This document shows positions 51,783 through 64,000 of a stretch of 64,000 bases of DNA, one piece after another. The translations under genes were made by a program, and so were the position numbers. The notes under the pieces are model-generated. The model worked only from the letters and a program-made list of their open reading frames with translations. It made no database searches and was not told where the DNA came from. This stretch comes from Paludibacteraceae bacterium (GTDB taxonomy: Bacteria; Bacteroidota; Bacteroidia; Bacteroidales; Paludibacteraceae): assembly GCA_024399495.1 (NCBI GenBank), contig JAKSNY010000001.1, positions 186,001 to 250,000 of the forward strand. The letters are read 5' to 3'. Position 1 is the stretch's first letter; every line of letters begins with the position of its first letter.

Positions 51783-52097
51783 ATGAGCAAATTACACATA
51801 AAGAAGGGTGATACCGTTTACATCAACGCTGGTGATGATAAAGGTAAGACCGGTCGTGTTCTATCTGTAGATGTCGATAAGAAACGTGCTATAGTAGAAG
51901 GCGCCAATATGGTATCAAAGCATACCAAACCCAATGCAAAAAGTCCACAAGGTGGCATCGTGAAAAAAGAGGCTCCTATCCAAATCTCTAACCTTAACCT
52001 TTTGGCTAAGGACGGCAAACCAACTCGTATAGGTCGTAAAGAGGTGGATGGCAAGTTAGTACGTTACTCTAAAAGAACAGGGGAGGAATTTAAATAA
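51783..52097 (+). CDS. rplX: 50S ribosomal protein L24
   Basis: 104 aa from ATG 51783 ([20 protein letters not shown]). A longer reading from 51735 would start inside rplN and is rejected. KOW motif in [20 protein letters not shown]. Early assembly protein near the tunnel exit. Stop and rplE start share one base. Confidence 0.97.
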
Positions 52098-52639
52098 TGA
52101 ATACCGCTAGTTATAAATCAGACTATAAGGAGCGTATAGCACCTGCATTGAAGAAGCAGTTCGGTTATAAATCCGCTATGCAGATTCCTGTTTTGGAGAA
52201 GATTGTCCTCAACCAAGGTTTGGGTGACGCAGTGGCAGACAAGAAGATTATTGAGGTGGCAGTTAATGAAATGACTGCAATTTCTGGTCAGAAGGCCATA
52301 GCCACATACTCTAAAAAAGACATTTCTAACTTTAAGTTACGTAAAAAAATGCCTATTGGCGTTTGTGTCACACTACGTAGAGACAGAATGTATGAGTTCC
52401 TTGAGAAACTTGTGCGTGTCGCTCTTCCTCGTATCCGTGACTTTAAAGGTATCAACAGTAAGCTTGACGGAAGAGGAAACTACACTCTTGGTATTCAGGA
52501 GCAGATTATTTTTCCGGAAATCAATATTGATACAGTTACAAAACTATCAGGTATGAACATTACTTTTGTAACTTCTGCCAAGACAGATGAAGAAGCCTTT
52601 GCACTTCTTAAAGAATTTGGTTTACCATTTAAAAAATAA
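52097..52639 (+). CDS. rplE: 50S ribosomal protein L5
   Basis: 180 aa. [37 protein letters not shown], and the C-terminal [20 protein letters not shown]. Binds 5S rRNA with L18. Confidence 0.98.
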
Positions 52640-52645
52640 GAGATT

Positions 52646-52915
52646 ATGGCAAAAGAGTCAATGAAAGCCCGTGAGGTTAAGAGAGCCAAGATGGTTGAGA
52701 AATATGCCGCTAAAAGAGCACAATACAAGGCGGAAGGTAACTATGAGGCATTGCAAAGCATACCACGTAACGCGTCTCCAGTAAGATTGCATAACCGTTG
52801 TAAGCTTACAGGTCGTCCGAAAGGTTACATCCGTATGTTCGGCATTTCCCGTATCCAGTTCCGTGAGATGGCTTCAAAAGGTCTTATCCCAGGTGTTAAG
52901 AAGGCAAGTTGGTAA
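52646..52915 (+). CDS. rpsN: 30S ribosomal protein S14, zinc-free form
   Basis: 89 aa. KCxxC zinc residues are absent. The conserved block is [20 protein letters not shown] and [20 protein letters not shown]. The length matches the zinc-independent bacterial type with an N-terminal extension. Confidence 0.97.
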
Positions 52916-52947
52916 AAACTTGAATAAGTGTTAAGTAATAAATATTG

Positions 52948-52962
52948 TCCGGGCAGTCCGGA
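52948..52962 (+). promoter_or_regulatory. Small hairpin between rpsN and rpsH
   Basis: TCCGG/CCGGA pair with a GCAGT loop in a 68-bp AT-rich spacer, longer than neighbouring spacers. It may mark an RNA processing or protein-binding site. Weak evidence. Confidence 0.3.
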
Positions 52963-52983
52963 TTAATTTAAAATTTAAAAAAA

Positions 52984-53373
52984 ATGACAGATCCTATTGC
53001 AGATTATTTGACGCGATTGCGTAATGCAATCAGTGCAGGCCACAGAGTGGTTGAGGTGCCGGCGTCTAATCTAAAGAAAGAACTTACAAGAATCTTGTTT
53101 GAGCAAGGGTTCATTCTGAACTACAAGTTTGAGCAGGACGGTCCTCAAGGTACAATTAAGATAGCCTTGAAGTATGTAAACAAAGTGAACGCAATTAAGG
53201 CTTTGGGGCGTATTTCCACCCCAGGTTTGCGTAAGTACTCAAGTCATAAAGACCTTCCACGTGTCTTGAATGGTTTGGGTATTGCTATTATTTCCACCTC
53301 TAAAGGTGTAATGACCGATAAGGAGGCCCGCGAACAAAATGTTGGCGGTGAAGTTTTGTGTTACGTTTATTAA
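52984..53373 (+). CDS. rpsH: 30S ribosomal protein S8
   Basis: 129 aa. [20 protein letters not shown] and the C-terminal [20 protein letters not shown]. Binds the central domain of 16S rRNA. Confidence 0.98.
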
Positions 53374-61250: not shown

Positions 61251-61517
61251 AACGAAATTAACTAACATAATTATTAACTTTCAACTATGAAAAAGAATTA
61301 TTCCGCTCCTAAGATGGAGCAAGTGAGAATGGAGGCAGAGATGCCCGTAATGGCTGGCTCTGTGACTCCTGGCGGCAAGAGTGTAGGAGCCACGCTAACC
61401 AGTATTGCAAACTGGTAACTGGAGTTATTAACAATTAAAAAAGTAAGAAAGCAAATGAAGAAATTCACTTATCTGGCTGCCACGCTGTTGGTAATGGCGG
61501 GAGCCGTATCGTGCAAG
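61251..61517 (+). repeat. Direct repeat, copy 1 (leader, peptide gene, signal peptide)
   Basis: 267 bp identical to 63201-63467 except C61498/T63448. It holds the AT-rich leader, the whole 43-aa peptide gene, the spacer and the first 21 codons of the lipoprotein gene. The offset is exactly 1950 bp. Confidence 0.95.
61287..61418 (+). CDS. 43-aa peptide, MKKxYxxP type, copy 1
   Basis: Reads MKKNYSAPKMEQVRMEAEMP at the N-terminus, then VMAGSVTPGGKSVGATLTSI and ANW. It is a short amphipathic start, an acidic/Met-rich middle and a Gly-rich, uncharged C-terminus, with no signal peptide. Short proteins beginning K-K-x-Y-x-x-P-x-x-E are scattered through Bacteroidota, often ahead of surface lipoprotein genes; no function is known to me. 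It lies 36 bp upstream of the lipoprotein gene on the same strand, and its copy at 63237 is identical. Confidence 0.75.
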   Translation: MKKNYSAPKMEQVRMEAEMPVMAGSVTPGGKSVGATLTSIANW

Positions 61518-62951
61518 AAGAATGCAGAAGTTAAAGAGCCGGCACCGCAACCTACAGGCGTAATGCGTCACGTCACAGTGTCTGCGGCAGGTCAGGGAAC
61601 AGCCAAGACCAGCGTAATATCAGGCGGAACACTCATTTGGTCAAATGATGACCATCTGAGCATAGTGCCTACAGCAGGCGGATTTGATGCCGTGGCACTT
61701 GATATAAAAGATGGTGCAGGCACATCATCAGGTACATTTGAAGGGGATATAGACTCCGGCATAAAGGATGACACACAACTCTACGGCTGGGCAGGCGGTA
61801 ATTGGGCGTACGACAGCGGTGCATTCACCGTCAATATGCCAACCACACAGACATACGCAGGTGACGGACTTGCAGAGAACGCATATCCGTCGATAGGTAC
61901 AGGTTCAATAGAGAGTGGAATATCACTTAGCAATCCTTTCGGCGTGCTGTGCCTTATAGTTAAGGGAGAGACCACAGACGCAGTAAAGAGCATAACCTTG
62001 ACATCTGCCGCAAACAACCTTGCAGGTGAGTTTACCGTAAATCCTAACAACTCTGCTGTAACAGAAGGTTCATCAAAATCAATAACACTTAACTGCACAA
62101 CAGCCGTTGCATTGGCAACAGACGGCGTAAACTTCCGCATAGTGGTTCCAGCCGCAAGCTATACAGATAAAGACCTTACGGTAATAGTTACAAAATCAGA
62201 CGACACATCATTTAATGTTACATTGGGTGCCACAACAGTTGCGGCAGGCAGCACCACAAAAGTGGAAGTTAAGGAGGCACCGGCAATCCGCCCTGCCTGC
62301 CAAAGTGCATTGAATGCTGATGCCAATTGGGTTAAAATAGGTGATCAATACTGGCTCAAGGAAAACACAAAGTGCATAGAGTATGACACAGAGTCTGAGG
62401 CGTATGCAGCTGGTATTAAAACTATAAAAACTATATCCACATCATCAAGTGGTATATATACCCCATACTACACAGACCCTACAACAACAACCATACCTGA
62501 TTATTTGGATGATCAGTCAGACAAATTGGGCTTGCTATACAACTGGGCGGCGGCTGTTGGTTTAGCTGACGGTAAGTCACAGACAACGCCATTCACTGAC
62601 AATCGCCAGGGTATATGCCCTAACGGCTCTCATATACCGTCAGAAGCGGAATGGAACATTCTTAGAGATAATTTGGGTGGACAATCTGAGGCAGGCAAGA
62701 AGATGAAGACATCCGCAGGCTGGCAGTCAGGCATAGGTGAGGGAGACAACGGTTTTGCGGCTCTACCGGCAGGCTACGCAAGTGGAAGCAGTGCGAGCAG
62801 TGTTGGTGGAAGCGCCTACTATTGGTTGTCAGACGCCCGCAATGGTACTAATGCCTACATCCGCGGTCTCAATTACACAAGTGACACCCTGAAAGAATCC
62901 AACTCCAATAAGATCACCGCATATAGCGTACGTTGCTTAAGGAACAACTAA
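61455..62951 (+). CDS. Fimbrillin-like/FISUMP-domain lipoprotein
   Basis: 498 aa. Lipobox VSC with Cys21 after a hydrophobic signal (YLAATLLVMAGAVSC). Residues about 36-280 match the fimbrillin-like layout: KTSVISGGTLIWSNDDHLSI, LYGWAGGNW, and a second beta domain ending GSTTKVEVKE. The C-terminal 215 residues are a FISUMP domain (Fibrobacter succinogenes major paralogous domain): WVKIGDQYWLKENTKCIEYD, LLYNWAAAVGLADGK, GICPNGSHIPSEAEWNILRD, ending ITAYSVRCLRNN. Probably lipid-anchored and surface exposed. A fimbria tip or adhesin role is inference. Confidence 0.85.
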   Translation: MKKFTYLAATLLVMAGAVSCKKNAEVKEPAPQPTGVMRHVTVSAAGQGTAKTSVISGGTLIWSNDDHLSIVPTAGGFDAVALDIKDGAGTSSGTFEGDIDSGIKDDTQLYGWAGGNWAYDSGAFTVNMPTTQTYAGDGLAENAYPSIGTGSIESGISLSNPFGVLCLIVKGETTDAVKSITLTSAANNLAGEFTVNPNNSAVTEGSSKSITLNCTTAVALATDGVNFRIVVPAASYTDKDLTVIVTKSDDTSFNVTLGATTVAAGSTTKVEVKEAPAIRPACQSALNADANWVKIGDQYWLKENTKCIEYDTESEAYAAGIKTIKTISTSSSGIYTPYYTDPTTTTIPDYLDDQSDKLGLLYNWAAAVGLADGKSQTTPFTDNRQGICPNGSHIPSEAEWNILRDNLGGQSEAGKKMKTSAGWQSGIGEGDNGFAALPAGYASGSSASSVGGSAYYWLSDARNGTNAYIRGLNYTSDTLKESNSNKITAYSVRCLRNN

Positions 62952-62964
62952 GTCATTTCCCTGT

Positions 62965-63144
62965 CATGCTGAAAGTGCTTGCCAACGAGAGCAGAACCAA
63001 GTTTACTTGGGTTATGCCGAGTGCCGCTAGCACTTCACGAGCGAAGCGAGTAATGAAACGAAGCATCTACTAAACATTATGAGATGTTTAGTTTCACGCA
63101 TTACCTAACGGTCAGTAAATAGTCTGAGCGTAGCGAAGAATCTC
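62965..63144. repeat. Palindromic intergenic repeat element between the two cassettes
   Basis: The block contains AAGTGCT/AGCACTT (62973-62979/63029-63035), AACCAAGT/ACTTGGGTT (62995-63002/63005-63013, one bulge) and CTAAACAT/ATGTTTAG (63070-63077/63084-63091). ATGCT/AGCAT bracket the first two. GAGCGAAGCGAG and CTGAGCGTAGCGAAGAATCT resemble the widespread non-coding repeat of the form TCATGCTGAGCG...CGAAGCATCT. No ORF. The remaining 63145-63200 carries the atgtatgatg and GCATCACC units. Confidence 0.7.
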
Positions 63145-63200
63145 TATTTGATGTATGATGTATAATGTATGATTCGCATCACCGAATCACCGATATAGAA

Positions 63201-63467
63201 AACGAAATTAACTAACATAATTATTAACTTTCAACTATGAAAAAGAATTATTCCGCTCCTAAGATGGAGCAAGTGAGAATGGAGGCAGAGATGCCCGTAA
63301 TGGCTGGCTCTGTGACTCCTGGCGGCAAGAGTGTAGGAGCCACGCTAACCAGTATTGCAAACTGGTAACTGGAGTTATTAACAATTAAAAAAGTAAGAAA
63401 GCAAATGAAGAAATTCACTTATCTGGCTGCCACGCTGTTGGTAATGGTGGGAGCCGTATCGTGCAAG
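63201..63467 (+). repeat. Direct repeat, copy 2
   Basis: Copy of 61251-61517 with one difference (T63448), which changes Ala to Val in the signal peptide of the second lipoprotein. Upstream the two copies share only the looser octamer and atgtatgatg elements. Confidence 0.95.
63237..63368 (+). CDS. 43-aa peptide, MKKxYxxP type, copy 2
   Basis: Identical in DNA and protein to the gene at 61287-61418. It again lies 36 bp before a lipoprotein gene. Exact conservation next to a much more diverged lipoprotein indicates recent duplication or gene conversion of the 5' cassette. Confidence 0.75.
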   Translation: MKKNYSAPKMEQVRMEAEMPVMAGSVTPGGKSVGATLTSIANW

Positions 63468-64000
63468 GATAATTCAAGTGTGAGAGAACCGGAATACATG
63501 CAATCAACCGGCGAAATGCGTTCCGCAACAATAGCGGATGAGGGACGCCCTGCCTGTCAGAGTGCGTTGGACGATGACAGCAACTGGGTGAAGATAGGCG
63601 GACTGTACTGGTTGAAGGAAAACACCAAGTGCGTAGAGTATGACACAGAGTCTGAGGCATACAATGCTGATTGGCTTGCAGTGCCGAACACAATACCTAC
63701 ATCAGAGTGGGTGACAGGTACCCCATATTACACTGCCATTCCTGTTTCCCAAAAACCTTCCTATATGAGTGAAGGGCAGTTTAGCAAGTTGGGCATGCTG
63801 TACAACTGGGCTGCCGCTATGGGTTATAAGGACGAGTTCGATGCAAAAGAGGCATACAGCGGAACCCGCCAGGGCATCTGCCCCAACGGATCCCACATTC
63901 CGACAGTAGAGGAGTGGAATGTCCTTGCAGACGCTTTGGGCGGCAAGGAGGTTGCCGGTAAAAAGGTAAAGACCAAATCAGGCTGGAGTGGTAAGGGCAA
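63405..64000 (+). CDS. FISUMP-domain lipoprotein, 3' end outside window
   Basis: Frame open to the window edge, 198 codons seen. The signal peptide and lipobox are the same as in the first copy (MKKFTYLAATLLVMVGAVSC). A short linker of about 30 residues then leads straight to the FISUMP domain (WVKIGGLYWLKENTKCVEYD; LGMLYNWAAAMGYKDEF; GICPNGSHIPTVEEWNVLAD). The fimbrillin-like part of the first paralogue is missing. FISUMP regions of the two are similar but clearly diverged. Confidence 0.83.
   Translation, partial: MKKFTYLAATLLVMVGAVSCKDNSSVREPEYMQSTGEMRSATIADEGRPACQSALDDDSNWVKIGGLYWLKENTKCVEYDTESEAYNADWLAVPNTIPTSEWVTGTPYYTAIPVSQKPSYMSEGQFSKLGMLYNWAAAMGYKDEFDAKEAYSGTRQGICPNGSHIPTVEEWNVLADALGGKEVAGKKVKTKSGWSGKG

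Follow-up and report, generated by a model that had tools for sequence, protein, structure and literature searches.

The closest described relatives of the system reported here are lipoproteins targeted by diversity-generating retroelements (DGRs). In the DGR of Treponema denticola (the TvpA family), as the relevant passages of PMC4891356 describe it, one template repeat (TR) and reverse transcriptase (RT) core serves two to seven targets, some of them remote and most with lipoprotein signals, and left-over targets occur in strains without the core. DGR targets with Mfa2 and Fib_succ_major domains are known from human gut metagenomes, with nine Fib_succ_major proteins in a table of that report (PMC4159848, in part). 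For modular DGR targets, Roux et al. (2021; PMC8144416, in part) suggest a possible origin by intragenic recombination, which would join a variety of N-terminal domains to C-terminal C-Lec regions. Here we analyze a 64,000-nucleotide stretch of DNA (hereafter the window) from a Paludibacteraceae bacterium, positions 186001-250000 of its contig C1, which carries near its right end two almost identical cassettes, each with a leader, a small peptide gene and the start of a lipoprotein gene. We conclude, with a probability of about 0.78, that these cassettes belong to a recombining multi-locus display family combined with a DGR, and that the repeat itself is a recent gene-conversion or duplication tract.

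The window comes from a metagenome-assembled genome (MAG) of 2.08 Mb in 26 contigs, with an estimated completeness of 82.5%. Contigs of this genome (G000) are called C1, C2 and so on; G001, G002, G010 and G011 are other genomes of the same genus. A sequence-only reading of the window had proposed that a 267-bp unit is repeated there almost perfectly, and this is what we found. Positions 61251-61517 and 63201-63467, each 267 bp, differ solely at 61498 (C) and 63448 (T), and the match ends abruptly, the adjoining base being already unlike on both sides. A genome search returned the repeat with E values of 4.5e-137 and 7.1e-136, which excludes chance. Each copy holds, as had been described, a 36-nt leader, an identical open reading frame (ORF) of 43 amino acids and the beginning of a lipoprotein gene, all on the forward strand. 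In the first copy, leader 1 (61251..61286) carries the motif ACGAAATTAACTAACATAATTATTAAC and one TTTCAACT 8-mer upstream of the ATG; it is followed by the peptide gene (61287..61418) and by the lipoprotein gene W1 (61455..62951; 498 aa). The W1 signal sequence has a lipobox-like AVSC at residues 17-20. Behind it lie an N-terminal domain that falls in no curated family (rough limits 61518..62300), a FISUMP domain (Fib_succ_major, PF09603 / TIGR02145; 62331..62942) and a tip resembling a variable repeat (VR), formed by the last 42 to 7 codons (62823..62927). In the second copy, a leader (63201..63236) and a peptide gene (63237..63368) of the same sequence lead into W2, which starts at 63405 (63405..64000 in the window) and has two FISUMP domains, the first from 63588. 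The lipoprotein bodies behind the shared unit thus differ, as the earlier reading also held: W1 combines the N-terminal domain with one FISUMP domain, and W2 has two FISUMP domains.

All FISUMP scores were above the cut-offs, at 95.2 bits (Pfam) and 98.9 bits (NCBIfam) for W1 and at 56.5 and 54.1 bits for the fragment of W2 inside the window. The window had rightly been said to end inside the second copy; W2 is complete in the genome (513 aa; C1:249405-250946), extending 946 bases past the window. The contig ends at C1:252163, after an opposite-strand gene that scores 84.9 bits (cut-off 52.1) with TIGR01784, the model of the Rpn family recombination-promoting nuclease/putative transposase. Across the whole window, a repeat search detected two direct-repeat families. 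One is the repeat of the 267-bp unit (292 nt, 97%), and the other (62289-62404 and 63546-63661; 116 nt, 81%) corresponds to the beginning of a FISUMP domain in W1 and in W2.

Further copies had been suggested, and the genome search found 21 peptide genes rather than two, by profile and likewise by single-sequence search. Among them, one is truncated by a contig start and another contains an internal TAG; the first codons of one more are present where C4 ends. Note that 21 is a lower bound, given that the assembly breaks inside a cassette, or no more than 250 bases from one, at the starts of C2, C7 and C9 and at the ends of C4, C9 and C18. Twenty of the 21 genes lead into a complete lipoprotein ORF, the remaining one's being cut by a contig end, and the gap to the lipoprotein start is 22-38 nt among the cassette copies tabulated.

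These cassettes form a mosaic. Exact tracts of at least 100 bp were shared by 13 of 190 cassette pairs (20 cassettes) and tracts of at least 200 bp by six, the longest being 1,033 bp, in pairs that are 52 to 90% identical overall. This longest tract, between C6:2981 and C6:15718, begins at peptide codon 10 and stops where the FISUMP domain starts; the sequences to its left and right are unrelated. An exact match of 362 bp inside the N-terminal domain connects W1 with C6:29117; C6:51803 and C25:64587 have 680 bp in common, ending near the start of the C-terminal domain; and the exact run of W1 and W2 covers 247 bp at the 5′ end of a pair with 59.5% overall identity. Because such tracts join copies with unrelated flanks, we conclude that the family recombines. 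This agrees with the earlier proposal that a shared 5′ unit and exchanged 3′ parts reflect recombination in a multi-copy family of surface lipoproteins. Tract positions vary, anywhere from the leader to the C-terminal domain, and the 267-bp unit is, judged from the sequences, one of several shared tracts and not a special boundary.

Exchange is also visible in the combination of platforms and tips. The genome has 38 FISUMP (PF09603) matches, 35 of them above the cut-off. On a tree of the N-terminal domain (residues 21-275 of 24 lipoproteins, with W2 left out as having no such domain), tip class switches at least five times between the DGR-type SVRA ending and the FISUMP SVRC ending, and all five switches are forced by well supported branches; the tree does not tell whether the tip or the platform moved. 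Tip-class labels are only weakly clustered on it (38 and 42 of 500 shuffles were as low, for the two classes), in line with movement of tips or platforms. A stretch shared by G010:C153 and G002:C33 suggests exchange between species. Reaching from the peptide tail into the lipoprotein, its roughly 300 bp contain one 3-base gap and two or three substitutions, with a longest exact run of 175 bp, in genomes whose rpoA genes are 79% identical; G010:C153, a MAG contig of 6.3 kb, could be misbinned. The loci of this near-identity are L215:379-1949 and L217:3991-5564 (reverse-complement coordinates), beyond which the bodies diverge. Rpn family recombination-promoting nuclease/putative transposase genes adjoin cassettes at L051:8284-9135 and L067:6400-7413, and AAA-ATPase-like/PDDEXK genes adjoin others, for example at C6:31609.

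The strongest diversifying mechanism that we found, and one that the sequence-only reading overlooked, is a DGR rewriting the 3′ ends of family members. A PF00078 search of the genome gave one RT gene (C6:54160-55368), located behind a peptide cassette. The locus runs from the peptide gene (C6:51803) through a lipoprotein gene with a VR (51951-53333), an ORF of 182 aa, the TR and the RT gene to an AAA-ATPase-like gene, and the complete DGR core (small ORF, TR and RT) spans C6:53451-55365 (L054:13451-15365). The 402-aa RT matches RVT_1 (3e-14) and the PHROG reverse transcriptase (3.8e-87), and a tblastn search with it matched 93 phage records, including five of Bordetella phages and Bacteroides phage F2. 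Read by eye, it presumably carries the GxxxSQ motif. The 182-aa ORF, considered as a candidate accessory protein (Avd or other), has a sub-threshold match to MutS_I (E 0.002; 18.8 against 20.6 bits) and none in NCBIfam or PHROGs.

The TR (C6:53963-54071), about one third of which is A, matches seven VRs at gene ends among the loci that we fetched. A genome-wide TR search recovered six of these, missing the one at C2:77304, and returned two more matches at E 0.13 and 0.46. Over the seven VRs, 118 of 164 mismatches fall at an A of the TR: 14 of 18 at C6:53220, 17 of 19 at C6:30603, 16 of 19 at C25:66025, 18 of 24 at C25:97808, 19 of 28 at C2:71613, 16 of 23 at C2:75823 and 18 of 33 at C2:77304. 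The share is at least 75% for four of them. Five of the VRs lie in lipoproteins of peptide cassettes, two of these in the second lipoprotein of the operon, and the other two lie in secreted-type proteins without a peptide (C2:75707-76414 and 77185-77904). Two VR proteins have weak, sub-threshold FISUMP / Lcl_C matches. Gene ends of SVRAI-like type that the TR does not match occur at C6:41653, C6:43236 and C7:1189. A broken second RT copy was seen right behind the C6:29117 cassette (L053:10797-11576; C6:30797-31576), where the small ORF and a separate template are missing.

Relatives of the RT (at 1e-15 or below) occur in 26 of 300 genomes of the family, from 13 of 33 genera; within the genus they are found in two of 16 genomes, the window's own and G011. 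At the four nearest RT loci (L200-L203), the order appears by eye to be unchanged: a target-like gene that has an SVR-type end comes first, then a small ORF of similar appearance, then the RT. A motif scan of 15 RT loci in other genomes found no convincing case of a peptide gene before the target. The DGR core thus has a wider distribution, and among the loci scanned it is joined to the peptide cassette in the window's genome only. Cassette lipoproteins of G002 and G010, which gave no RT match, carry SVRA-type ends. At L207 (G069:C7:42001-52000, reverse strand), several ORFs upstream of a DGR-type RT share repeated text (LLNSASCLLP, RNNSNGELYNVGANGNYWSG), as if a number of template or variable repeats stood in a row.

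In the mechanism that we propose, each operon consists of a leader (in most copies), a gene for a peptide of about 40 aa and at least one lipoprotein gene, whose product joins an N-terminal platform to a C-terminal domain of FISUMP type. The RT would copy the A-rich TR with errors at A, and the product would be written into the VRs. Homologous recombination would spread platforms and swap tips, so that each cell could hold many surface proteins with different binding tips. The family therefore resembles a means of generating a large variety of binding proteins for the cell surface.

The tips of the window genes bear a footprint resembling that of known VRs. Among 12 FISUMP-type genes including W1 and W2, the ratio of differences at codon positions 1 and 2 to those at position 3 is 1.21 in the best 35-codon window, against a median of 0.74. 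A subset of seven genes gives 1.31 against 0.65, and the positive control, five VR genes, 3.89 against 0.76. None of 2000 shuffles was as high in any of the three gene sets. The excess peaks in the last 35-40 codons or so, near the C-terminal end; in the seven-gene subset, a second window (columns 300-335) reaches 1.01. The fraction of NNY codons (third base C or T) is 0.74 in the tips of both W1 and W2, compared with 0.48 and 0.53 upstream; the 12-gene mean is 0.75 against 0.50, and known VRs have 0.79 against 0.49. The position shift and the NNY enrichment are what A-to-N mutation of AAY codons would leave. Most likely, W1 and W2 were once targeted by a related DGR, or else they are targets of a TR that the assembly lacks. 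A candidate second template at C2:1719-1864 was rejected: it resembles a FISUMP end, no intact gene surrounds it and it is not A-rich. The C-type-lectin fold of such tips is an assignment from parts of the literature and not from models of the window proteins. Viral relatives of the FISUMP domain were observed at one locus; the viral contig L237 has three FISUMP-like domains in two ORFs, with VRLVR-type tails at the end.

Several results weigh against a recombining display family with a DGR. Even with E values up to 1 allowed, the TR did not match W1 or W2; as they show the footprint only, we do not count them among its targets. A second TR was sought among the fetched loci and, with a window-type tip, across the genome, and neither search gave one; all 18 matches of the latter (query included) lie at known FISUMP matches. 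Three VRs have less than 75% of their mismatches at A (70, 68 and 55%), which implies that some VRs are old or decayed. The footprint is not general: a tandem pair in G001 that has the mosaic shows NNY fractions of 0.66 and 0.46 at the tips, compared with 0.54 and 0.53 upstream of them. Without any DGR, such a footprint could also arise if selection diversified a binding surface. AlphaFold2 models of W1 and of its FISUMP domain were poor (mean pLDDT 38 and 37), and a sequence search for solved relatives gave none that was credible. All 18 pairs with a tract of at least 60 bp had none as long in 1000 column shuffles, but this test detects only clustering of matches, which a conserved domain beside an unlike one would pass too; for this reason we place the weight on exact nucleotide identity with diverged flanks. 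Finally, the assembly is a MAG that breaks at cassettes.

Much of this would also suit an ordinary paralogue family, formed by tandem duplication and occasional 5′ gene conversion, with no programmed diversification of the window genes and a DGR that is incidental. The missing TR match of W1 and W2 fits such a history, as do the differences of window-type tips at third positions too (0.44/0.40/0.335) and the tandem copies of G001, which lack a clear footprint in a genome with no RT match at 1e-15. Yet the same cassette and N-terminal domain that precede the W1 tip also precede a TR-matched VR tip at C6:29117, and the excess at positions 1 and 2 is concentrated at the C-terminal end, with NNY enriched as in known VRs. 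We therefore consider this explanation unlikely, although it deserves to be taken seriously. Classical antigenic variation, in which a single site is expressed, the other cassettes are silent and recombination at the shared 5′ unit brings about switching, would account for that unit, the differing 3′ parts, the many copies and those lipoproteins that have no peptide gene of their own directly upstream (for example C6:38372 and C2:7055-8572). Here the earlier reading is not supported, since it had envisaged a common expression unit serving a library: at least 13 of the 21 copies carry their own leader motif with no more than one mismatch, nearly all go on into a complete lipoprotein ORF and exchange tracts are not confined to the 5′ unit. 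Antigenic variation of this kind is thus very improbable.

The 43-aa ORF might instead be a cis-acting leader peptide, that is, an attenuator or translational coupler of the lipoprotein gene and not a functional protein. Its short distance from the lipoprotein start and the leader motif of most copies are as such a role would predict. But the head of the peptide has a ratio of nonsynonymous to synonymous substitution rates (dN/dS) of 0.18, pooled over pairs of 19 full-head copies that are not independent, and we accordingly regard it as a protein-coding gene. Furthermore, the leader had no Rfam match as an RNA element up to E 0.5, and at L135, L138, L139 and L144 the peptide gene lies downstream of a large secreted-type protein on the same strand. 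Because the peptide occurs on either side of its neighbor, we disfavor a cis-acting leader and rate it as improbable. An artefact, in which the repeat or chimeric joins come from the MAG assembler, could be suspected from the several contig ends that lie in or within 250 bases of cassettes. A false join is nevertheless unable to produce a tract between copies with different flanks on both sides, the W1 and W2 cassettes are 1.95 kb apart on the same 252-kb contig, and relatives show the same pattern of peptide and lipoprotein; we give this explanation almost no credence. Returning to the recombining family with a DGR, it can be extended to a two-tier system. The DGR would write tips at a few loci, and recombination would bank and redistribute them among FISUMP and lipoprotein paralogues behind a constant leader and peptide head. 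The result would be an archive of earlier DGR products, including the window genes, that could be recombined with other platforms, with the peptide as a dedicated partner of the displayed proteins. This extension is tentative, and we lean toward doubting it.

The peptide is under purifying selection and probably tied to the neighboring surface protein. In an alignment of 18 intact copies from distinct loci (one of the two identical window copies being used), a shared head of about 25 aa reads MKK-YSAPx(L/M)EQVRMEAEMPVM(AG/QT)S or near it, and the tail varies; every aligned peptide terminates at W or at most three residues after it. No Pfam or NCBIfam family was found for the peptide, as the best matches over 31 alignment members were at chance level, and a plasmid search gave no match. 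Among 300 genomes of the family, 21 have a peptide match at E 0.01 or below, from five of 33 genera; E values were calculated per genome, and about three chance matches are therefore expected at this threshold. At L136 (twice), L142 and L143 of the relatives, the peptide lies just upstream of a lipoprotein with a FISUMP-like end, the ends being judged by eye. In L136 (G001:C37), from another species of the genus, two peptide-lipoprotein units stand in tandem; their front ends are similar and their tips differ. At L135, L137, L138, L139, L141 and L144, the peptide was seen just downstream of large secreted-type proteins with, by eye, sorting-domain-like ends. Export by a C39-type transporter, as for a peptide of double-glycine type, was considered and finds no support: no C39 transporter gene adjoins a cassette, and C39 domains lie on C10 and C22 and peptide genes on other contigs (a third match, on C26, is below the cut-off). 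A small double-glycine-like peptide ORF does adjoin a C39 peptidase transporter at L131:9649-9936 (on C22); it is unlike the cassette peptide.

The leader motif was searched for in the genome with the pattern ACGARWTTAACWAAMATA, which gave 22 matches at up to two mismatches, compared with seven for a reversed control pattern. Fourteen of the matches are exact and two have one mismatch; of these 16, 13 lie before peptide genes, two at contig ends (C4 and C9) and one at C21:55491 (in L063), where the motif stands without a peptide gene, ahead of an unrelated gene. A looser form precedes three more cassettes (C6:2981, C3:60203 and C25:95372), and some cassettes, such as C6:15718, C6:41493 and C18:17493, have no leader motif. 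Between motif and ATG there are often one to three TTTCAACT-like 8-mers, whose spacing differs among copies, window leaders included.

Cassette arrays were probably inserted at the gene that we take to be rplQ and between those that we take to be pyrH and frr. Within about 1.5 kb downstream of rplQ, no peptide cassette was found in 13 relatives of the genus (two of 15 had no rplQ match). In the nearest relative, G010, a gene of 631 aa follows rplQ after a gap of 155 bases; its counterpart is found on C9, where it immediately follows another cassette (C9:242-2925, then 3275). Where C9 ends, pyrH is followed by a cassette leader, and on C18 two cassettes precede frr; pyrH and frr are neighbors in eight of 13 relatives. 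The window array thus probably continues into contigs that the assembly left unjoined.

These findings have wider implications. The building of DGR targets by recombination, which the relevant part of PMC8144416 inferred from modular targets, becomes directly testable, as it appears here within one genome in the form of recent identical tracts and five or more changes of tip class. If window-type tips are indeed former DGR products, FISUMP expansions in gut Bacteroidales may partly record past DGR activity. The peptide represents an unnamed family of small proteins beside surface-type proteins in more than one genus, and it could serve as a handle on the making or display of its neighbors.

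DGR-diversified Fib_succ_major lipoproteins, remote lipoprotein targets and the proposal of recombination were already known, as the passages cited from PMC4159848, PMC4891356 and PMC8144416 attest. We found nothing in the open-licence literature searched, part of it as excerpts, that describes the peptide, recent tracts that join DGR with non-DGR tips, or a footprint without a template. The FISUMP models, both of whose cut-offs the window genes pass, attach no diversification mechanism to the domain. Like the Treponema denticola DGR (PMC4891356, in the passages concerned), the system has one core and several dispersed lipoprotein targets. Unlike here, the Treponema denticola targets are predicted to be of FGE-sulfatase type and the accessory gene of HRDC type, and those passages make no mention of a shared upstream peptide gene or of tip and platform exchange by identical tracts. 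With the gut targets of PMC4159848 it shares predicted lipoproteins that have a C-terminal Fib_succ_major domain and are under a DGR; the passages on them describe no peptide cassette or recombining paralogue family. Compared with the fusion suggested in the passage of PMC8144416, exchange is visible here as recent identical tracts in one genome, together with changes between DGR and non-DGR tips. We therefore regard three features as new: the peptide, the mosaic whose recent tracts link DGR and non-DGR tips, and the footprint without a template.

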